DNA from: Granulicella sp. S156
GTDB lineage: Bacteria; Acidobacteriota; Terriglobia; Terriglobales; Acidobacteriaceae
Length of the DNA stretch: 64,000 nucleotides
Direction: 5' to 3'
NCBI RefSeq assembly: GCF_009766105.1
Contig: NZ_LMUH01000020.1
Location: 90,033 to 154,032, forward strand
Part shown: piece after piece, positions 6,313 to 37,067 of the stretch
Layout of the letters: every line of letters starts with the position of its first letter
Numbering within the stretch: position 1 is the first letter of the stretch
Translations under genes and position numbers: made by a program
The notes under the pieces: generated by a model
The model's database searches: none
Told to the model about the DNA's origin: nothing
Seen by the model: the letters and a program-made list of their open reading frames with translations, nothing else

Positions 6313-7626
6313 CTAACGAACGGCTAACTCATCGAGATAGGTAAAGAACTCCGGAAACGAGATGCTCGCTGCCTCCGCACCGTGAATCTCCGTCTCTCCT
6401 TCAGCCCGCAGTGCCGCGATGGAGAAGGCCATTGCGATGCGATGGTCCTGGCCGGAGTCGACCACACCACCGCGCAAACGCTGGCCGCCGGGGATATCCA
6501 TCCCATCCTCATGCTCCGTGACCTCAGCGCCCATCGCGCGAAGATTCTTGACGACAAGGGCGATGCGGTCCGACTCCTTCACGCGCAGCTCCTTCGCATC
6601 ACGGATGCGGATGCCGTCCTTCGTATAGGGCCCTATGGCGGCGATGACAGGGAGTTCGTCGATCAACTGTGCGGAAAGAGAACCCGAAATATCGACTCCC
6701 TTCAGGCCCGCGTGTCCGCGATTCACCTGGATAGTTCCAGCCATCTCTCCATACTGCTCCTGCACGTCCAGCACCTTGATGGTGCCGCCCAGTGAGGTGA
6801 TGACATCCAGCAGCGCCGAGCGTGTCGGATTCATGCCCAGCGCGTCGAGCACGAGATTGGAGTCCTCAAAGAGCAGTGCTGCACACAGAAAGAATGCAGC
6901 TGAAGACATATCGCCCGGCACCGTTGCGTCGATGGCCTGTAGCTGTTGGCCGCCGCGGATAAACACACGCTCTTCGCGCCGTTCGAGCTCCGCACCGAAG
7001 GCTCGCAACGCATGCTCGGTGTGATCACGAGTGCGCACAGACTCGGCAAACGACGTAACCCCCTGCGCCTGCAGGCCCGCGAACAGCACAGCCGTCTTGA
7101 CCTGCGCACTGGCGATCGGGGCCTCAAAATCAATAGCCTTCAGGGCCGCACCGTGAACGGTCATCGGCGCGTGGCCTTCGGTCAGCTCGATACGCGCGCC
7201 CATAGCCTCCAGAGGCTTGCGAATGCGCTCCATCGGCCGCACCGTCAAAGACTCATCGCCGACAAACCTGTACACACCCTGCTGTGGGGCAACGAGTCCC
7301 GCGAGCATGCGCATCGTCGAGCCGGAGTTGCCGCAATCGAGATCGTGCTTCGGCTGATGCAGCACGCCGCCCGTACCGGTTACAGAAATGGCCCGGTCTT
7401 CGAGAGAGACCTTCGCTCCCATGCCCTTCATGCAGGCCAGTGAGCTGTGCGGATCGGCCCCTGTGGAAAAGTTCGTCAGCCGCGAGGTTCCGCTGGCGAA
7501 TCCGGCGAGCATGGCGTAGCGATGCGAGATCGATTTATCGCCAGGCAGGGTAAGGGAACCGCGCAGGCTGCGCGCCGGACGAACGATCTGAGTCGTAGAG
7601 GCTGAAGCGTGTGATGCAGAAGACAT
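6313..7626 (-). CDS. aroA: 3-phosphoshikimate 1-carboxyvinyltransferase (EPSP synthase)
   Basis: Sixth step of the shikimate pathway: transfer of enolpyruvate from PEP to shikimate-3-phosphate. The 437-aa protein has the substrate-binding LPGDKSISHR near residue 27, the PEP-site DCGNSGSTMRMLAG near residue 98 and KESDRI near residue 350. A polar ~15-residue N-terminal lead precedes the first beta strand. It is flanked upstream by hpt on the same strand; the gap contains an inverted repeat (7649-7730) that may act as an hpt terminator, so aroA may have its own promoter. Confidence 0.95.
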   Translation of the reverse strand: MSSASHASASTTQIVRPARSLRGSLTLPGDKSISHRYAMLAGFASGTSRLTNFSTGADPHSSLACMKGMGAKVSLEDRAISVTGTGGVLHQPKHDLDCGNSGSTMRMLAGLVAPQQGVYRFVGDESLTVRPMERIRKPLEAMGARIELTEGHAPMTVHGAALKAIDFEAPIASAQVKTAVLFAGLQAQGVTSFAESVRTRDHTEHALRAFGAELERREERVFIRGGQQLQAIDATVPGDMSSAAFFLCAALLFEDSNLVLDALGMNPTRSALLDVITSLGGTIKVLDVQEQYGEMAGTIQVNRGHAGLKGVDISGSLSAQLIDELPVIAAIGPYTKDGIRIRDAKELRVKESDRIALVVKNLRAMGAEVTEHEDGMDIPGGQRLRGGVVDSGQDHRIAMAFSIAALRAEGETEIHGAEAASISFPEFFTYLDELAVR

Positions 7627-7648
7627 ATGCTTCTATCTTAGAGCAGCA

Positions 7649-7730
7649 AGGAAACAGGAATCAGCAAACAGGAAACAGGAAAAGCGAAAGTTTGCCGTTC
7701 CTGTTTCCTGTTTCATGCTTCCTGTTTTTA
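7649..7730. repeat. Intergenic inverted repeat built from GGAAACAG units (copy 1)
   Basis: The left arm (about 7649-7681) contains AAACAGGAAACAGGAA and the right arm (about 7697-7730) its reverse complement TTCCTGTTTCCTGTTT. Only ~16 bases form the loop, and the arms pair over roughly 30 bases with a few mismatches. The right arm overlaps the hpt stop codon by a few bases. A similar but not identical hairpin from the same GGAAACAG/AACAGGAA words lies at 19108-19178. A transcript hairpin or terminator role downstream of hpt is plausible; the shared vocabulary suggests a dispersed repeat family. Confidence 0.75.
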
Positions 7731-8291
7731 GTGCCCGGGAGGGGTCTCCGGCATCAGGCGAATGTCTTCCACGCCGCGATAGCGCTCGGCATAGTCCATG
7801 CCATAGCCGATCACAAAGCGGTTGGGGATCTTGAAGCACACGTAGTCGGCTTCGATGGGCACCAGGCGACGCTCAGGCTTGTCCAGGCAGGTGGCGATCT
7901 TCAGGGAGGCAGGCTTGTGCTGCAGCATCAGGCCGCGCAGGTAGCTCAAGGTCAGGCCGGTATCGAGGATGTCCTCGACCAGAATGACGTGCTTGCCTTC
8001 AATGGGGTTATCAATGTCCTTGATCAGCTTGACGGCGCCTGACGACACGCGCGCACGGCCATAGCTGGAGACAGCAACGAAATCGAAGGTATTGTCCACT
8101 TCGATAGACCTTGCGAGGTCGGCGAGAAAGATGGCGGCGCCCTTGAGCACCCCAATAAGCACAATCGATTGTCCGGCATACTCTTCGGAGATTTCCTTGC
8201 CCAGCGCGTGTACGCGCTCAGCTATCTGTTCTTTGGAGAAGAGGATATCCATGGTTCCAGGGGACACAAACTCGGGCACATTCGTAGACAT
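7728..8291 (-). CDS. hpt: Hypoxanthine phosphoribosyltransferase
   Basis: Purine salvage enzyme converting hypoxanthine or guanine plus PRPP to the nucleotide. At 187 aa it has the family's normal size, with GVLKGAAIFLADL at residues 47-59 and the PRPP-binding loop VILVEDILDTGLT at 102-114. The base-binding region is YVCFKIPNRFVIGYGMDYAERYR near the C-terminus. Met14 (MDILFSKEQIAERV) is where many homologues begin, so the true start could be 39 bases downstream. It is transcribed toward aroA. Confidence 0.93.
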   Translation of the reverse strand: MSTNVPEFVSPGTMDILFSKEQIAERVHALGKEISEEYAGQSIVLIGVLKGAAIFLADLARSIEVDNTFDFVAVSSYGRARVSSGAVKLIKDIDNPIEGKHVILVEDILDTGLTLSYLRGLMLQHKPASLKIATCLDKPERRLVPIEADYVCFKIPNRFVIGYGMDYAERYRGVEDIRLMPETPPGH

Positions 8292-8398
8292 GGGCGTAGG
8301 TTAGCGCGAAAGCACGCTGAGGAAAACATGTGACTATCTCCAGCTTGACGCTATCCGAACAAGGCTCCGGCGCTCCTCCCGATATACTCGAAGGAGAC

Positions 8399-9277
8399 AT
8401 GTACCCTTTTATCAATATTGGATCCCTGCACATCGGGACGTTTGGGCTGCTCCTTTGGCTGGCGGCCGTCTGTGCCACTGTGGTGTTGCATAAGAACTTC
8501 ATTCGCAACGGCGTAGACGCCGATGCGCTCACGATCGTTGCTGTCGTCACACTCTCCGGCGTGTTTGGCGCAAAGGCCTGGCACGAGCTGCAGAATCCGC
8601 GCGAGCTCGTCCTCGCCTGGCGTCAGATCATGCTCCCGGGATGGCATCATCCTCTAGGTATTATTTTCGGCTTCCTGCGTTGGTTCCAGGCGGGTTTTGC
8701 CTGGTTCGGAGGCTTGCTGGCCGGTGTGGCCATGCTGATCTATCAAGGCCATCTCGCCAGGCCGAACGGACTTCGCGGACTTCGCGCAGGCCTGAGGTTG
8801 ATGGACTTTGCTGCCCCGGCGGCAGCCATCGGTTACGGCGTTGGCCGCATCGGCTGCCTGACCTCGGGAGATGGAGACTATGGCATCAACACCACGTTGC
8901 CGTGGGGTGTCCATATGGCCTGGAACGCCCTGGTTCCAACGAATCCGCCGGATGCCCTGGTACAGCCAACCCCGGTCTATGAGTTGCTGTTTTCACTGGC
9001 CATCGGCTGGTGGCTGTGGAAGCAGGCCTCGAAGCCTCGTCCTCTTGGCTTCCTCACAGGGGAGTATCTCGTTCTCAGCGGAATCGGTCGTTTCCTGGTG
9101 GAGTTCGTCCGCATCAACCCGAAGCTCTACTTCGGGCACACCATGTCGAATGCGCAGCTCGCAGCGCTCGGAACCATCGTAGTGGGTGCTCTCCTCATGT
9201 TTGCGACACGCAACAACGAAGCGATTGTGTCCACGCCGTTGCCGAAAAAGGTTCAGGCCAGTCCGGCAGAGGCCTGA
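8399..9277 (+). CDS. lgt: Prolipoprotein diacylglyceryl transferase
   Basis: Inner-membrane enzyme that attaches diacylglycerol to the lipobox cysteine of prolipoproteins. The 292-aa protein has about seven hydrophobic segments. It has the Lgt signature GRIGCLTSGDGDYG near residue 152, PTPVYELLFSL near 190 and RFLVEFVRINP near 230. The frame is open from 8330, but the ATG at 8399 has an ideal AAGGAG site five bases upstream and begins MYPFINIGSLHIGTFG as in the family, so I place the start there. LspA, which acts on the same substrates, is encoded at 14498-15001. Convergent with the SprT-like gene. Confidence 0.93.
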   Translation: MYPFINIGSLHIGTFGLLLWLAAVCATVVLHKNFIRNGVDADALTIVAVVTLSGVFGAKAWHELQNPRELVLAWRQIMLPGWHHPLGIIFGFLRWFQAGFAWFGGLLAGVAMLIYQGHLARPNGLRGLRAGLRLMDFAAPAAAIGYGVGRIGCLTSGDGDYGINTTLPWGVHMAWNALVPTNPPDALVQPTPVYELLFSLAIGWWLWKQASKPRPLGFLTGEYLVLSGIGRFLVEFVRINPKLYFGHTMSNAQLAALGTIVVGALLMFATRNNEAIVSTPLPKKVQASPAEA

Positions 9278-9300
9278 AGCGGATACCGCTAGGTTCCTAA

Positions 9301-9370
9301 TTTGGAGGTCGCCATGGATTCCGTCGCGACCTCCGCGAAACCTCTGCGATCTCTGCGTTAAGGATTTTCT
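9301..9370. repeat. Dispersed GCAGAGG repeat, copy A
   Basis: In the gap between lgt and the convergent SprT-like gene, positions 9316-9368 read on the minus strand match 43660-43712 read on the plus strand at about 49 of 53 positions. The block contains TTAACGCAGAG, CGCAGAGGTTTCGCGGAGG and CGGAATCC. Copy A also carries its own short inverted repeat, with GGAGGTCGC (9304-9312) facing GCGACCTCC (9326-9334). Its end touches the SprT-like stop codon. Confidence 0.8.
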
Positions 9371-10081
9371 CTACAACCGCTTCAGATACTCACGCGCCAG
9401 CTCAAGCTCCGGAAACAGCCGTTCCTCAGCCTGAAACTCCTTGGAGTGCACACAGCGCCGTCCCGCACGCACCCGCACGGGATGCTTCAGGTGCAGCATC
9501 TCGTGGTACAGCAGGTATTCGATGGCGTAGCGTGGCGTCCCGGGCCTATCGAAGACACGGCTGACGACGATGGTGTTGTGCGCGGCGTCGTAGTGGCCGA
9601 GCATCCGCTTGGCGACATGCGCGCTCCACGTCAGGGTAGGGCGTCCCAACAGGCCGTGGAAGAAGCGCAGATTAACCGCCTCAAAGACCTCGTCAAGATT
9701 GTAGAGATGTCCCTGCGCCGTGCTGATACGCTTGCGTCCGCGGTCCTGCCGGATACGCTCCGCCTGTTTGGATACTGCTTCCGACTGCGTATAGCGGCGG
9801 TAGCGGTCGGCATAGATCGGTGCGATCGGCTTCCGGTACAGCTTGGCCAGCAGAATGTGCGCAATGGCATGGTGTATCGGCTCGGGCGCATACACCAGCA
9901 GGTCGGAGAGCCGGACAATCAACTTCCCGTCGCGCAGCCGAATCGTTGTATTCAGACTGGTAAAGCGACGAAACTTGATCTCCAGCAACGGCATAGGAGC
10001 CCGTGGACGAAGCTCACGATACTCCTGCTCGAAGATCGAGATGAGTTCGGACGAAACAGTTGGCAGAGCGGTAACAGACAC
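9371..10081 (-). CDS. SprT-like zinc metallopeptidase domain protein
   Basis: A 236-aa protein with the zinc motif HEMLH (in YLLYHEMLHLKHP, near residue 191) and a downstream histidine in RRCVHSKEFQAEERLFPEL. This arrangement fits SprT/YgjP-like metallopeptidases. The middle region LNLRFFHGLLGRPTLTWS-type sequence (EAVNLRFFHGLLGRP, ~130) is also typical of SprT-like proteins. The first ~110 residues look like a second, degenerate copy of the fold without the zinc ligands. The substrate is unknown. It is transcribed in the same direction as the TPR-uvrA block but separated from it by about 30 bases. Confidence 0.75.
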   Translation of the reverse strand: MSVTALPTVSSELISIFEQEYRELRPRAPMPLLEIKFRRFTSLNTTIRLRDGKLIVRLSDLLVYAPEPIHHAIAHILLAKLYRKPIAPIYADRYRRYTQSEAVSKQAERIRQDRGRKRISTAQGHLYNLDEVFEAVNLRFFHGLLGRPTLTWSAHVAKRMLGHYDAAHNTIVVSRVFDRPGTPRYAIEYLLYHEMLHLKHPVRVRAGRRCVHSKEFQAEERLFPELELAREYLKRL

Positions 10082-32188: not shown

Positions 32189-33469
32189 ATGAATCGAGTT
32201 CTTTTTCGCGGTGCCAGTGTATGGGATGGGAGCGGCGCTCCCGCATTTCTGGCAGACGTCCTTGTTGAAGGTTCCAGGATCAAGACCATCGCCCGCGCGC
32301 CTGAGCGGCTTGCCACAGATGGCGCTACCGTGATCGAAGCTCGCGGCAGAACGCTGATGCCAGGCCTCGTCGAAGGCCATGCGCACATCTCATTCGGCGG
32401 CGCTGTGAATGATTCCGATCTGGGGAACATCCCGCCGGAAGAGCATATGCTGCTGACGGCACGGAATGCGAAGACCCTGCTGGACCATGGCTTTACCAGC
32501 GCCTATAGCGCGGCTACCTCAAAGCTGCGGCTTGATGTCGTCATCCGCAATGCCGTCAATGCGGGAGAGTTTCCTGGCCCACGCATCCGCGCGGGAAGCC
32601 CGGAGATCACCGTCACCGGAGGCTTAGGCGACGAACGCAAAGCGCATATGTACTACGAAAGCTTTGGCATGATCGCCGACGGCGTCGAAGACATCAAGAA
32701 GGTCGTTCGCCTGTGTTGTCGTGAGGGAGTAGACAACATCAAGGTGAACATCTCAGGGGACGATCTCAGTCCAGCAGCGCATGGCGGCCTTACCGTGATG
32801 CGCGAAGACGAGATACAAATGGCCGTCGATGTGGCACGCGACTTCGGCAAGAAGGTGAACTGCCATGCGCGGTCGGCGGAATCCGTGAAGCGTGCCGTTC
32901 GCTGCGGCGTGGACGTGATCTATCACTGCGAGTCGGCGGACAAGGAAGCGATCGACCTGTTGGAGTCTGCGAAGGATAGGATCTTCGTGGGACCGGCGAT
33001 AGGGATTATCTACAGCACGCTCTATGAGGGCGAGAAGTTCGGCTTCCACCGCGACTCCGAAGTTGGCCGGCAGATGCAGCGCGTAATCGACACCACGGCG
33101 GAAGTTTATACGGAACTCCGCAAGCGGGGAGTGCGCATTCTCATCGGAGGCGACTATGGATTCGCGCAGTCACCGCAGGGCGACAATGCGCGAGACCTCA
33201 AGCATTTCGTCGATCTGCTCGGCTTCTCCCCCAACGAAGCTCTGCAGTGCGGCACGCGCATCGGTGGGCAGGTAATGGGCCTGGGCAAAGAGCTCGGTGA
33301 GGTGAAGGAAGGCTATATCGCCGATCTGCTTCTGCTCGATGGCGACCCGCTAAAGGATATCGATCTTGTGGTGCATACAAAAAACCTCCACGTGATCATG
33401 AAGGAAGGATCACTCTACAAGAACGACTCCGCTACAGCCGTCCTCGAGCATACGGTGGCAACCTCATAG
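32189..33469 (+). CDS. Amidohydrolase-family metal-dependent hydrolase
   Basis: A 426-aa TIM-barrel amidohydrolase. Metal-binding residues are visible in order: HxH in VEGHAHISFGG (residues ~62-64), a lysine strand DNIKVNISGDD near 190, histidines in NCHARS and IYHCES, and the aspartate in GGDYGFAQSP near 318. The C-terminus returns to the composite beta-sandwich (GEVKEGYIADLLLLDGDPL). This branch resembles imidazolonepropionase/prolidase-like enzymes; it probably opens a cyclic amide or cleaves an N-acyl amino acid taken up by the neighbouring permease. A strong AGGAGGT site precedes the ATG. Confidence 0.88.
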   Translation: MNRVLFRGASVWDGSGAPAFLADVLVEGSRIKTIARAPERLATDGATVIEARGRTLMPGLVEGHAHISFGGAVNDSDLGNIPPEEHMLLTARNAKTLLDHGFTSAYSAATSKLRLDVVIRNAVNAGEFPGPRIRAGSPEITVTGGLGDERKAHMYYESFGMIADGVEDIKKVVRLCCREGVDNIKVNISGDDLSPAAHGGLTVMREDEIQMAVDVARDFGKKVNCHARSAESVKRAVRCGVDVIYHCESADKEAIDLLESAKDRIFVGPAIGIIYSTLYEGEKFGFHRDSEVGRQMQRVIDTTAEVYTELRKRGVRILIGGDYGFAQSPQGDNARDLKHFVDLLGFSPNEALQCGTRIGGQVMGLGKELGEVKEGYIADLLLLDGDPLKDIDLVVHTKNLHVIMKEGSLYKNDSATAVLEHTVATS

Positions 33470-33510
33470 CAGAAGAGCCGGTGGCCTTACCAAAAGCTTT
33501 GACCAATACG

Positions 33511-33565
33511 GATGCCCTCTCAGGAGTCTGGCGCATAGACAGACTTCTGAAGGGGCATCTTTTTT
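33511..33565 (+). terminator. Rho-independent terminator of the catabolic operon
   Basis: Outer stem GATGCCC (33511-33517) with GGGCATC (33553-33559), continued by an inner stem TCAGGAGTCT/AGACTTCTGA (one G-T wobble), then TTTTTT (33560-33565). It lies 41 bases after the amidohydrolase stop and just before the left end of the transposon-like element. Confidence 0.88.
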
Positions 33566-33607
33566 GCAGCAGCTTACAGTGCTAGCCATAGAGTGTTTGT
33601 GAGGTGG

Positions 33608-33612
33608 TCCTA
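33608..33612. repeat. Target-site duplication, left copy (TCCTA)
   Basis: TCCTA lies directly outside the left terminal inverted repeat and is repeated exactly outside the right one (35211-35215). Tn3-family transposition produces 5-bp duplications. Confidence 0.9.
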
Positions 33613-33649
33613 GGGGGCACCACAACAAACGTCAAAAATCGTACGCTAA
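33613..33649 (+). repeat. Left terminal inverted repeat, Tn3 type
   Basis: Begins GGGGGCACCACAAC and continues AAACGTCAAAAATCGTACGC then TAA. It differs from the right repeat only at positions 5, 9 and 13. Confidence 0.92.
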
Positions 33650-33681
33650 CCCTTCGGTTGAACTGAGCACATCCCCGACAG

Positions 33682-33711
33682 TTGACAGCTGTAAGTCTAC
33701 ATATGTAGAGT
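33682..33711 (+). promoter_or_regulatory. Promoter of the padR operon, probably leaderless transcript
   Basis: TTGACA (33682-33687), an 18-base spacer and TAGAGT (33706-33711) place the likely transcription start at or within a base or two of the padR ATG (33719). There is no ribosome-binding site before that ATG. Together these suggest a leaderless mRNA. Confidence 0.6.
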
Positions 33712-33716
33712 TACAG
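33689..33716. promoter_or_regulatory. PadR operator palindrome
   Basis: A 28-bp palindrome with a single mismatched pair, centred on the perfect 14-bp core TCTACATATGTAGA (33696-33709). It covers the spacer and -10 region of the padR promoter, the place where an autoregulating PadR repressor would bind; PadR-type operators often contain ATGT...ACAT-like arms. Confidence 0.8.
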
Positions 33717-33718
33717 TT

Positions 33719-34024
33719 ATGAAGATACGCAAGTCACCACAGACGTTGATCGTCTTGAGTGGTTTTCTGGAAGATCCTCGGGGCTGGAAATACGGCTACG
33801 ACATCAGCCGGAACACCGGATTGAAGTCCGGCACCTTATATCCCATCCTGATGCGATTGGCGGACCATGGACTATTGCAAACGAGCTGGGAGATGGCAGA
33901 GACTGGCAAACCTCCTCGTCATCTCTACAAGCTCACAGAAGACGGTTTGCGCTATGCGCAAGAGCAGATAATTTCTCAGGGTGCTCCTGGGCGTGATCTG
34001 GGGTACAACGAGGTAATAGCCTAA
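33719..34024 (+). CDS. PadR-family transcriptional regulator (transposon cargo)
   Basis: A 101-aa short PadR protein: winged helix GWKYGYDISRNTGLKSGTLYPILMRLADHGLL and the wing TGKPPRHLYKLTEDG, with little beyond the DNA-binding core. It probably represses its own operon through the palindrome at 33689-33716 and responds to an inducer or to the partner membrane protein. Its stop overlaps the next start as TAATG. It lies wholly inside the Tn3-derived element. Confidence 0.9.
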   Translation: MKIRKSPQTLIVLSGFLEDPRGWKYGYDISRNTGLKSGTLYPILMRLADHGLLQTSWEMAETGKPPRHLYKLTEDGLRYAQEQIISQGAPGRDLGYNEVIA

Positions 34025-34722
34025 TGACCATTCTTCGACGGCTGGCTGTGAACACGCTAAGAACTGTGGTCTGGCTATCTTCACCCGCTACGCAGAGCTG
34101 GGCGAAGGCAATGCTAGCCGAACTGGATTCCATTAGCAGTGAGTGGAAAGCGTTCTTTTGGGCAATCGGAAGTGTACGAGTGCTCTTTGTACGCCAGACG
34201 ATTCGACCTGCAAGTCTTTCCGATATTCCTGCTGCGGCAAAGGTGCTTGCCGACAGAATGAATCAGAGAACTCGGTTAGGCTGCGTAATGGTTGTGGGGA
34301 TGGCGCTCTTCTTCGGGAGGTTTTTCCTACATGCACCAAATGCTCTGCAGCAAACAGGGTGCGCTCTGCTCGTTGTCGCTATGCTCTACATGCTGTTTCA
34401 GCTTGTGACCGGGAGGCCGAAGCACATCGCACCGAATGCGGACCTGGCCGCTCAAACCAACCTTTACAGGTCCGAGCTAAAGCGCGAGCGTGACTTTCAT
34501 CGCGGTCGTTCATTCTGGTCACGTCTAGCCGTCGTAATGCCTGGCTTTATCCTACTTTGCATCGGTGGCATGGTTGCTGACCCATCCGCAATTCGCAGCC
34601 AGACCATTCAGCTAGCGCTCTTTTTCTTCTTCGCCCTGCTCGCAATACCGAATAATTTGCGCTTTGCGAAACGGTATGCACATCAACTGCAGGAGCTAGA
34701 ACACCTGGAACTGAAAGGCTAG
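34024..34722 (+). CDS. Membrane protein, partner of PadR (transposon cargo)
   Basis: A 232-aa protein with an ~80-residue N-terminal soluble part and four predicted membrane segments: [52 protein letters not shown] and [15 protein letters not shown]. Charged residues ([16 protein letters not shown]) lie between the second and third segments. The family is unknown to me. It is coupled to padR by a one-base overlap. Similar PadR-membrane pairs are common in Acidobacteriota, but here the pair is inside a mobile element. Confidence 0.75.
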
Positions 34723-34805
34723 CCACAGGAATACATCCCGGGTGTTGCGCAAACGATCATTTACGCAATGATCTCAGGGCAGGCTCAAAGCCCAACATTT
34801 CGAGT

Positions 34806-35163
34806 TGCAGGCGTGTCCAGGTTGGCCTCAACAAGGGCGAGGCGAGGGATGCGCTTGCCCGCGCGGTTTTCTTTAATCGCCAAGGCGACCTGCGCGACCG
34901 CAGCTTCGAGAACCAGCGCTATCGGGCGAGTGGACTCAATCTAATGGTCGCTGCCATCATCCTCTGGAACACGGTCTATCTGGAACGCGCTATTGCAGCC
35001 CTGAAAGGCCATGGGATTGCCATCGACGAGGCCCTGGCCCATCTCTCACCCATCGGCTGGGAGCACGTCCAACCTGATCGGTGACTACACCTGGCAGGCT
35101 ACAGGACGGCTCAGGAAAGGTGCCTTCAGACCGTTGCGACCCTTTGCAGCCTCCAACGAGTGA
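34806..35163 (+). pseudogene. tnpA: Tn3-family transposase, decayed 3' end
   Basis: From 34806 one frame reads [20 protein letters not shown], then [20 protein letters not shown], then [20 protein letters not shown] and ending SPIGWEHV. These are the conserved C-terminal blocks of Tn3-family TnpA. One extra base at about 35067-35071 shifts the frame. After it the sequence continues [24 protein letters not shown] to a TGA at 35161-35163, ten bases short of the right repeat. Upstream of 34806 the match is already disturbed, apparently by a small deletion. Well over 800 residues of the normal protein are absent, so it cannot work. Confidence 0.88.
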
Positions 35164-35173
35164 TCCGATTTCC

Positions 35174-35210
35174 TTAGCGTACGATTTTTGACGTTTGGTG
35201 TAGTGACCCC
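35174..35210 (-). repeat. Right terminal inverted repeat, Tn3 type
   Basis: On the minus strand it begins GGGGTCACTACACC and then shares the 23-base inner part with the left repeat without a mismatch. It is followed directly by TCCTA. Confidence 0.92.
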
Positions 35211-35215
35211 TCCTA
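35211..35215. repeat. Target-site duplication, right copy (TCCTA)
   Basis: Exact copy of 33608-33612, directly adjoining the right inverted repeat. Confidence 0.9.
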
Positions 35216-35357
35216 CAGCAATACAGTACACATGCCCTATTGTCAGTGGCGAAATCGCGGCGTTAACTTGTCAGGTCAAAGTAGGCGCTCCCAGTAATGC
35301 ATCCTGAATTCTTTTGAGGGCTGCGAGCGCTTCGGACATTTTGAACCCGGAGAGACG

Positions 35358-36926
35358 ATGCCGACCATGGGACACAACGCTTGTACCAGCTTCTTAAAAA
35401 CCTTGTTTGCTGTAATCCTCTTCAGTCTGCTTCCAATGAAGCTGGCGCATGCTCAGGCTGCAACAGGAACTTTCCTTCCGAACAGCACTTTGTATCCTCG
35501 ATTGGTGCGATTGGCGCATGGCTCTCCCGCTGTGAACGGTGAGATTGTGGCTAGCACCAACGGAAATATCTTCCTGAGTACGAACGGGGGAAGTAGTTTC
35601 AATTTCCTGGGAACTGTGCCCACGCAGAGCGGTAGCACGGAACGATGCTGCGGAACTCTATATGAGGTGCCGCAAACCGTGGGAAGCCTGCAGGCAGGAA
35701 CGCTGCTGTATGCAGCCTCTTATTTTGCGGGCTCAACACCGGCAATTGAGGTGTACACCAGCACCGACCAGGGAAATAGCTGGGCCTATTCCTCTATGCC
35801 TGTTGAAGGCGGTGACTCTTCCCATGGATTGTGGGAGCCGCAGTTCGAGATTGCGGATGATGGTGCCCTGGCGATGTTCTGGTCCGACGAAACAGATAGC
35901 TGCTGCAGTCAGAAGCTGGCCCAGATTCGTACGTATAACGGTACCTCGTGGCAAGATCAAACAAACACAGTTGCAAGCACCGTATCGTCCGACCGGCCAG
36001 GAATGGCAGTTGTGACGAAGCTGCCAAGTGGCACCTACTTTATGAGCTATGAACTATGCGGCCCGGCGGCATGCACGGTCTTCTATCGAACTTCGACAGA
36101 TGGCTGGAACTTTGGGACAGCTTCAAACACAGGAACGAAGGTCCAGACAGCTTCAGGCCAGTACTTCGAACACGCGCCCACAAATGCATGGAGCCCATCC
36201 GTCATTTCAAGCAATGGGGCACTCCTGCTGGTGGGCCAGGTAATGTTTGAGTCAACTGGCGCCCAGTCTGCTGAAAATGGCCAGGTACTGTTTGCAAATC
36301 TCAGCAGTGATGGCTCGGGCCCCTGGTATACGATTGCTGCGCCGGTCCAGGTTCCTAACGCTTACGACAACTATTGCCCGAACTACTCCTCAGCTCTTCT
36401 GCCGGCTACCGACGGATCAAGCATCCTCGAGTTGGCAAGCGCCTACAACAGCAGCAACCAGTGCGTAAGTTATTTCGGTAGCGAAGCCTGGAATCAACAG
36501 CCGGTTGACGGTTCTACTCATTCCTTTGTGAACCAGCAGGCAGGCTTATGCCTCGATGACTATGGATGGGGCACGACAAACAACACATCGGCTGACCTCT
36601 GGACATGCACAGGTTCAACCATCCAGAACTGGGTTGTGCATGCCCAAGGTAACGGCTACTTCAGCATTCAGAACCAGTACACAGGTTTGTGCGTGGACGA
36701 TACGGGTGGCAGTACTACGCCCGGCAATCTGGTCAGCTTGTGGGGTTGCGTGGGGAACAATAATCAAAGCTGGTTATTCATGGATCTCGGAGACGGCCAG
36801 TACAAGCTCCAGAACAGCGCAGGCGGTTTGCCCCTGGACGACACAGGCGGCTCGTCCACTCCAGGAACACAGTTAGAGATATGGACTGATAATGGATTGG
36901 CACCACAGCATTGGGTATTGAACTAG
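35358..36926 (+). CDS. Secreted sialidase-like (BNR) protein with ricin-type lectin domain
   Basis: A 522-aa exported protein with a signal peptide (LLPMKLAHAQA end, ~33 residues). Residues ~45-370 form a beta-propeller-like region with Asp-box repeats (STNGGSSF, STDQGNSWAY) as in sialidases. Residues ~378-522 form a ricin B/CBM13 lectin domain with Q-x-W words (QNW, QSW, QHW) and repeated LCLDD/LCVDDTGGSTTPG. It may bind and perhaps cleave polysaccharide. No catalytic arginine triad was identified, so enzymatic activity is not assured. Its composition is richer in A+T than the housekeeping genes nearby. GGAGAG precedes the ATG. Confidence 0.8.
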   Translation: MPTMGHNACTSFLKTLFAVILFSLLPMKLAHAQAATGTFLPNSTLYPRLVRLAHGSPAVNGEIVASTNGNIFLSTNGGSSFNFLGTVPTQSGSTERCCGTLYEVPQTVGSLQAGTLLYAASYFAGSTPAIEVYTSTDQGNSWAYSSMPVEGGDSSHGLWEPQFEIADDGALAMFWSDETDSCCSQKLAQIRTYNGTSWQDQTNTVASTVSSDRPGMAVVTKLPSGTYFMSYELCGPAACTVFYRTSTDGWNFGTASNTGTKVQTASGQYFEHAPTNAWSPSVISSNGALLLVGQVMFESTGAQSAENGQVLFANLSSDGSGPWYTIAAPVQVPNAYDNYCPNYSSALLPATDGSSILELASAYNSSNQCVSYFGSEAWNQQPVDGSTHSFVNQQAGLCLDDYGWGTTNNTSADLWTCTGSTIQNWVVHAQGNGYFSIQNQYTGLCVDDTGGSTTPGNLVSLWGCVGNNNQSWLFMDLGDGQYKLQNSAGGLPLDDTGGSSTPGTQLEIWTDNGLAPQHWVLN

Positions 36927-37040
36927 AGCAGAATCCCTATTCCTATCCCCTCGGAAAGAGCTTAGAAGTGGCACTTTCCGAGGGGAAAAGTGCCCATCAA
37001 ATGATCGTCACTGGGTACATCTATAGGGATTCCGCTCTAG
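36923..37040. repeat. Nested palindrome, MITE-like
   Basis: Outer arms CTAGAGCAGAATCCCTAT (36923-36940) and its inverse at 37023-37040 match at 17 of 18 positions. Inside, CCCCTCGGAAAG (36947-36958) pairs perfectly with 36974-36985; an alternative stem pairs GGCACTTT (36970-36977) with AAAGTGCC (36987-36994), which would exclude the first. It overlaps the stop codon of the sialidase-like gene and separates it from the convergent regulator gene. It may be a small inverted-repeat element or a complex bidirectional terminator. Confidence 0.7.
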
Positions 37041-37067
37041 CGGTGCGTCATCGAGTGCAGCCCACCA

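Follow-up and report, generated by a model that had tools for sequence, protein, structure and literature searches.

Introduction

That DNA can be moved by transposon ends whose transposase is supplied from elsewhere is a principle already known from two kinds of element, mobile insertion cassettes and TIMEs. The closest described systems are the TnXax1-related mobile insertion cassettes of Xanthomonas, which belong to the Tn3 family (PMC6304161), and the mic-qnrS2 cassette of Aeromonas, which has 22-bp repeats and a 5-bp duplication (PMC2600179); as far as the consulted parts of these reports go, both consist of cargo within transposon-type repeats, lack a transposase and depend for their movement on a transposase acting in trans. 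TIMEs, in the portions of their literature drawn on here, are also transposase-less, with ~38-bp repeats and 5-bp duplications; a putative res has been noted in TIME244, and a functional one is reported for IS101. Simple TIMEs are described there as 244-262 bp long, cargo-free and mobilising DNA as pairs of copies. The cargo of published non-autonomous Tn3 cassettes, within the same partial coverage, consists mostly of resistance and plant-pathogen genes. In the literature searched, mostly outside subscription journals, no earlier description in Acidobacteria was found, but one may exist; in the available text, the body of a paper on acidobacterial genomes (PMC5900883) does not contain the term Tn3, and an article on G. 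tundricola (PMC4148992) mentions many mobile elements and uses no word starting with "transpos".

Here we describe a cassette of 1,598 bp within the window, by which we mean the whole stretch of 64,000 nucleotides from Granulicella sp. S156 that was analysed. It resembles the Xanthomonas and Aeromonas cassettes, as partly documented, in having cargo within transposon-type repeats and no transposase, and any movement would have to rely on a transposase in trans; it differs from them in its PadR-membrane protein cargo, its Acidobacteriaceae host and the persistence of the 3' end of tnpA together with half of a res-like site. Its sister cassettes in this family keep a res-like site by one repeat, for which the consulted parts of the Xanthomonas and Aeromonas reports contain no mention. 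Compared with TIMEs, as far as these are covered by the same sources, the Acidobacteriaceae cassettes are single units with the cargo between two ends.

Results

The cassette is bounded by inverted terminal repeats of 37 bp, IRL at 33613-33649 (minus strand, GGGG outermost) and IRR at 35174-35210 (plus strand), identical at 34 of 37 positions (3 mismatches). The unstranded 5-bp sequence TCCTA directly outside IRL (33608-33612) recurs perfectly outside IRR (35211-35215). An earlier, sequence-only reading had seen here a compact element derived from Tn3 with no intact transposase but intact ends, repeats of this length and identity, a perfect TCCTA duplication at both outer edges and a PadR-membrane protein operon inside, all of which is borne out; the perfect inner run that it had put at 23 bases does exist, at a length of 24, the next base inward being different.

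The cargo comprises padR (33719-34024, plus strand; 101 aa, PF03551, E 4.3e-12) and a gene for a 232-aa membrane protein (34024-34722, plus strand), which overlap at TAATG. The latter protein has no above-cut-off Pfam match and about four hydrophobic segments by Kyte-Doolittle analysis only, in agreement with the previously noticed pair of intact, coupled genes for PadR and a four-helix membrane protein. PadR systems in general suggest membrane stress or efflux as the default guess for its function. Upstream of padR lie, at 33682-33715 on the plus strand, a putative promoter (TTGACA at 33682) and a putative PadR operator palindrome, TGTAAGTCTACATATGTAGAGTTACA, at 33690-33715; the palindrome regarded as the putative PadR target is TCTACATATGTAGA. 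All nine of the upstream regions of related padR genes that were examined contain a TTGAC box together with a TCTA-6-TAGA palindrome near the start codon, which supports autoregulation of padR; PadR would probably repress its own operon through the operator palindrome.

Relatives of both genes were collected by tblastn (E <= 1e-4) within the loci assembled for this study. Outside the window, padR relatives occur at 12 places, 11 of them at 54-74% identity and one at 33%, and 7 of the 12 adjoin a relative of the membrane protein (28-51% identity, 4 of the 7 aligning over 53-78 residues only). Judged from these loci, padR and the membrane gene downstream are a recurrent native pair. No terminal repeat at <=13 mismatches was found around any of the 11 padR relatives at 54-74% identity, all 11 of which were scanned. 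A pattern search for close homologues of the membrane protein yielded 55 stretches in genome contigs, 0 of them confirmed, and none in plasmids. In another genome, a PadR-like gene (33% identical) lies ~200 bp inside a single repeat (L177 7810-8229).

A relative with a full transposase, of the kind that the sequence-only reading had proposed looking for, was found in Granulicella sp. dw_53 (L163): a full Tn3-family element of 6,835 bp in the order IRL-cargo-res-tnpR-tnpA-IRR, with a TnpA of 990 aa (PF01526, E 3e-157) and a TnpR of 190 aa (PF00239, E 1.2e-47). The terminal repeats, the 3' end of tnpA and the res-like site of L163 are homologous to those of the window and stand in the same order; unlike the window, it has intact tnpR and tnpA and other cargo. 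An erythromycin-esterase-family gene (PF05139) belongs to that cargo (6631-9555), as do two thioredoxin/DsbA-like genes. The flanks of L163 show no matching duplication (TTATC/ATATT), so this reference element may itself be rearranged.

The tnpA remnant of the window (34807-35163, plus strand) matches PF01526 positions 296-385 (E 2.3e-26) and corresponds, in two frames, to residues 873-960 and 961-990 of the L163 TnpA, with 89% identity over residues 873-960. It is frameshifted near its end, and its stop lies 10 bp before IRR. That a frameshifted Tn3-type tnpA 3' end sits where full elements carry it, as had been recognised from the sequence, is confirmed by the same order in L163. The last 404 bases of the cassette (34807-35210) are 79.6% identical to the 3' end of L163, and the two IRR sequences are identical. 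The earlier reading had not included what precedes the remnant: a half res-like site at 34742-34810 (minus strand), comprising site I, the spacer and the start of site II (HMM positions 50-118 only, E 1.4e-8) and distant from the repeat, and, from the res/tnpA comparison with L163, an unstranded junction at 34807-34809, where GAGTTGCA of res passes directly into GGCGTGTCC of tnpA. The GCA at the junction is common to both parent sequences, res and tnpA of L163. Because res abuts tnpA at this shared GCA, tnpR and approximately the first 872 tnpA codons appear to have been lost together; it looks like one internal deletion at a 3-bp microhomology, which would have extended over half of res, the whole of tnpR and the part of tnpA that encodes residues 1-872. 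Another deletion derivative occurs at L259 5206-6572 (= L074), where TnpA residues 1-192 stand beside 851-990 in two pieces and the terminal repeat abuts tnpR at about residue 83.

The res HMM was built from 11 cassette ends, using 120 bases inside the repeat and excluding L163 and the window. In L163 it matches 9655-9768 (E 3.8e-17), directly upstream of tnpR, which starts at 9770; the site III end thus lies beside tnpR, the order that has been described, as far as the consulted part of that source shows (PMC7157771). Six further ends outside the training set match at E < 1e-4, 2-6 bp inside the repeat and in the same direction, nearly complete in L254, L261 and L258 and truncated in L160, L119 and L122, which brings to 17 the ends whose repeat is followed, 2-6 bp further in, by a res-like site. 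In these res-bearing cassettes, the repeat occupies the position at which tnpR starts in the full element. Two candidates were not counted: L171 (E 7.7e-5), which lies in the opposite direction beside a repeat with 12 mismatches, and L046 (E only 0.021). Eleven further stretches match at E < 0.001 away from or without a repeat, those of the window and L163 included. In the own genome, at the end of contig C25, a single repeat (L009 6217-6290) lies ~200 bp from the contig end, and ~6 bp inside it TTGCGCAATCGTTCGTTTGCGCAA forms a lone palindrome like res site I (E 0.004).

The exact repeat core was found in 19 stretches of genome contigs, 18 with Acidobacteria names (Granulicella, Edaphobacter, Acidobacterium, Acidobacteriaceae and Bryobacterales) and one labelled Fibrobacteres, and in 0 viral contigs. 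At <=3 mismatches, a family-wide scan gave at least 104 matches in 49 of 398 genomes; since the reversed pattern also gave at least 22 matches in 19 of the same 398, some of the 3-mismatch matches are due to chance. Several of the loci retrieved are without a good repeat, and the long regions examined leave out the matches from 8 of the 49 genomes. Pairs were counted among repeats with <=10 mismatches over the 37 bases, 95 repeats in 93 loci chosen for holding one, and L175 was excluded, having been found only via the duplication criterion and having an indel in its right repeat. Most ends are single; there are 13 inward pairs against 3 outward and 2 same-direction pairs. Six of the 13 have a perfect 5-bp duplication, one matches at 4 of 5 positions and six have none (L117, L122, L129, L161, L163 and L168), to be compared with controls in which displaced outer 5-mers were identical in 2 of 728 cases and those of swapped partners in 0 of 156.

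The search for repeat pairs and their cargo elsewhere in Acidobacteriota, another proposal of the sequence-only reading, thus returned inward pairs with varied contents. Beside the window cassette (1,598 bp, PadR and membrane protein, TCCTA), they include a 3,090-bp cassette of Granulicella aggregans (L158, CTTTA) with a cargo of four proteins (a GntR regulator, an ABC ATPase, a protein just below the ABC-2 cut-off and one without Pfam match); one of 2,752 bp in Edaphobacter modestus (L254 = L081, ACCTA) with an SDR fragment and an unrelated transposase; one of 982 bp with a single SDR gene on the G. tundricola plasmid pACIX902 (L167 = L086, TTACT in the orientation of L086); and three others, of 855 bp with DUF6438 (L133, TTAGA), of 1,044 bp with a GDSL-type lipase/acylhydrolase (L256, TATTT) and of 837 bp with a 191-aa protein without Pfam match (L155, TAATG/TAGTG, 4 of 5). 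The PadR-membrane protein cargo, which had been thought unusual, is not exceptional in a family whose other members carry SDR, GntR-ABC, DUF6438 and GDSL-type hydrolase genes. One of the pairs without duplication (L129 7075-10224) surrounds a gene for a TetR regulator together with one resembling FAD-binding monooxygenases (PF01494).

Evidence for movement of transposase-less members comes from the tnpA-less SDR cassette, which is present on the plasmid of G338 and in G275, a genome with a different genus label, at 85.4% identity over 988 bp. The match starts 2 bp inside the cassette and stops 8 bp outside it; the flanks do not match (about 0.5 kb per side compared), and the outer 5-mers are TTACT and TTCTA, respectively. 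Three further genomes (G390, G416 and G360) have the SDR gene with no repeats around it, at 84-85% identity, the matches spanning 159-170 to 933-943 of the 982-bp cassette, approximately the interval between res and the opposite repeat; weaker relatives without repeats are found in G187 (79%, 170-900) and G309 (75%, 110-524, reaching the res part). L256 and L123 (G158) have in common 792 bp of cargo and one end at 81.7%. For L155 there is a nearly exact empty site: the flanks stand 88 bp apart in the relative G184, where the cassette is absent, and 935 bp apart in G380, an alignment that is close, not base-perfect. For L133, no adjacent flank pair was present among the matches listed from 62 genomes. 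The SDR cassette at unrelated sites, the nearly exact empty site of L155 and the res-bearing ends support the existence of trans-mobilised Tn3 cassettes in Acidobacteriaceae, and the comparison of the two SDR copies supports that cassette having moved as a unit by a transposase in trans. Beside the L155 cassette, a short repeat (8742-8818) that resembles a dispersed element recurs many times in that genus.

The own genome contains no second copy of the window cassette, four further copies of the repeat, as single ends only, and no intact Tn3-type transposase, the remnant being its sole PF01526 match. Among 150 relatives, in which each genome's best candidates were scored, there was no second window cassette; 18 of the 150 genomes, the own included, match single ends, padR, res or tnpA pieces, and PF01526 is present in 9, again with the own included. 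The L163 TnpA has relatives (E <= 1e-10) in 26 of 398 genomes. A full-length match above 70% exists only in G410, which is the source of L163 itself; those in G450, at 85-95%, are pieces truncated by the start of a contig, and near-full matches in other genomes are 26-62% identical. No such relative occurs in four of the genomes that bear cassettes (G402, G380, G338 and G275); in a fifth, G419, there are distant relatives only (26-31%), and the cassette-bearing G459 and G464 were left out of this search. If there is a trans-acting source of transposase, it would be absent today, unassembled or elsewhere. On plasmids, TnShfr1-like Tn3 transposons, compared at the repeat only, have a repeat 84% identical over 38 bases, TnShfr1-family features lying under the repeat match in at least 3 plasmid records; the 85-aa TnpA piece of the window is 75-77% identical to the 25 plasmid matches listed, which come from many plasmid kinds.

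An empty site for the window cassette was not found in the two nearest relatives, G002 and G022, chosen by a 96-97% identical amidohydrolase among 15 genomes searched: what they have in common with the window here is the left flank only, as far as about 33,458; the right neighbour is a different one, and the genes that follow in the window from 37,067 onward are located elsewhere in them. Synteny with them is thus broken over 33459-37067 of the window, the genes to the left and right being at separate places.

Discussion

We are highly confident that the window cassette, 1,598 bp long, is a non-autonomous transposon of the Tn3 family and belongs to the mobile-insertion-cassette type. Its ~38-bp repeats beginning with GGGG (34/37), its 5-bp duplication and its DDE transposase, present as a remnant only, place it in the Tn3 family, and its cargo lies between transposon ends in a unit from which a functional transposase gene is absent. 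It has no intact tnpA, as an autonomous Tn3 transposon would, and between its ends there is a half res-like site and no tnpR; at 1,598 bp and with two genes it falls outside the TIMEs, which are gene-free and about 0.05-0.5 kb long. An integron gene cassette is unlikely because the ends are of Tn3 type and the duplication is 5 bp. Counted against our assignment are the six of 13 pairs without duplication, the lack of a second copy and of an empty site in the genomes compared, the absence of an intact Tn3-type transposase from the own genome, and the unduplicated L163.

The progenitor would have had the order IRL - padR - membrane gene - res - tnpR - tnpA - IRR. A single deletion at the GCA microhomology would have eliminated tnpR entirely, along with half of res and roughly the first 872 tnpA codons; both ends would have stayed, with a self-contained operon that is probably under PadR control. 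Arrival at the site would have been by Tn3-type replicative transposition with its 5-bp duplication. Any further movement would require a related TnpA from elsewhere to act on the repeats, and with half a res, cointegrate resolution would probably depend on homologous recombination. We infer that the cassette could be mobilised at present and that a TnpA of the L163 type would recognise its ends.

The order of deletion and arrival gives two timing variants of this explanation. The sequence-only reading took the intact ends and the duplication to imply movement after the transposase had decayed; transposase-less relatives did move, as the SDR cassette and L155 suggest, but for the window copy a deletion in place fits equally, because a full element that inserted and was then deleted in place would look alike, and intact ends and duplication therefore do not date the deletion. 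We give an even chance to decay in place, in which the element that inserted here was a full Tn3 transposon with padR and the membrane gene as cargo, and tnpR and most of tnpA were deleted afterwards. One deletion at a microhomology is enough to explain the structure, a comparable internal deletion exists in the relative L259/L074, no second copy was seen in the own genome or among the best candidates of 150 relatives, and the window has lost half of res, which sister cassettes retain. What speaks against it is that other family members moved without tnpA; nothing specific to this locus does. Slightly below an even chance stands the reverse order, in which the deletion preceded arrival and a transposase acting in trans brought the compact cassette to this site. 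It would account for the retention of both ends and a perfect duplication, it has precedents in transposase-less sisters at different sites, one with an empty site (L155), and the four single ends point to past activity of the family in the own genome; yet no second copy carrying the GCA junction is present in the own genome or the best candidates of 150 relatives, and the own genome has no intact related TnpA. A further reading takes the repeats for chance or regulatory sequences that flank a native operon; in its favour, padR and the membrane gene do form a native pair elsewhere in these genomes. We reject it as extremely improbable given the 34/37 repeats, the exact duplication with its controls (2/728, 0/156), the half res-like site and the 3' end of tnpA standing in the L163 order and the repeat-free loci of other close padR relatives.

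Beyond this locus, we tentatively consider, at somewhat less than even probability, that Acidobacteriaceae harbour a long-lived lineage of transposase-less cassettes with a fixed repeat-plus-res end and exchangeable genes, dependent on both TnpA and TnpR in trans, which would amount to an integron-like sharing of genes. The fixed end would comprise the repeat and res, 2-6 bp apart and together ~155 bp, and ordinary genes or operons would lie nearly flush with the ends; there would be no integrase, helper full transposons would be rare, and the lineage would have the padR cassette as a side branch. The cargo in these cassettes consists of everyday regulators, transporters and enzymes of soil bacteria, and one cassette has reached two genera. 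If true, this would be a modest, concrete route of gene flow in Acidobacteriota, and the ends, the res-like site and the full relative make transposition in trans directly testable.

The end of the transposon is also the site of a different element. In four genomes, a group II intron (Rfam RF02005) starts with TGCGCCGGGAG exactly at the inner edge of the Tn3 repeat (L117 7503, L128 7325 on the minus strand, L136 7402 and L263 128), and this intron may target the transposon end or ride on it.
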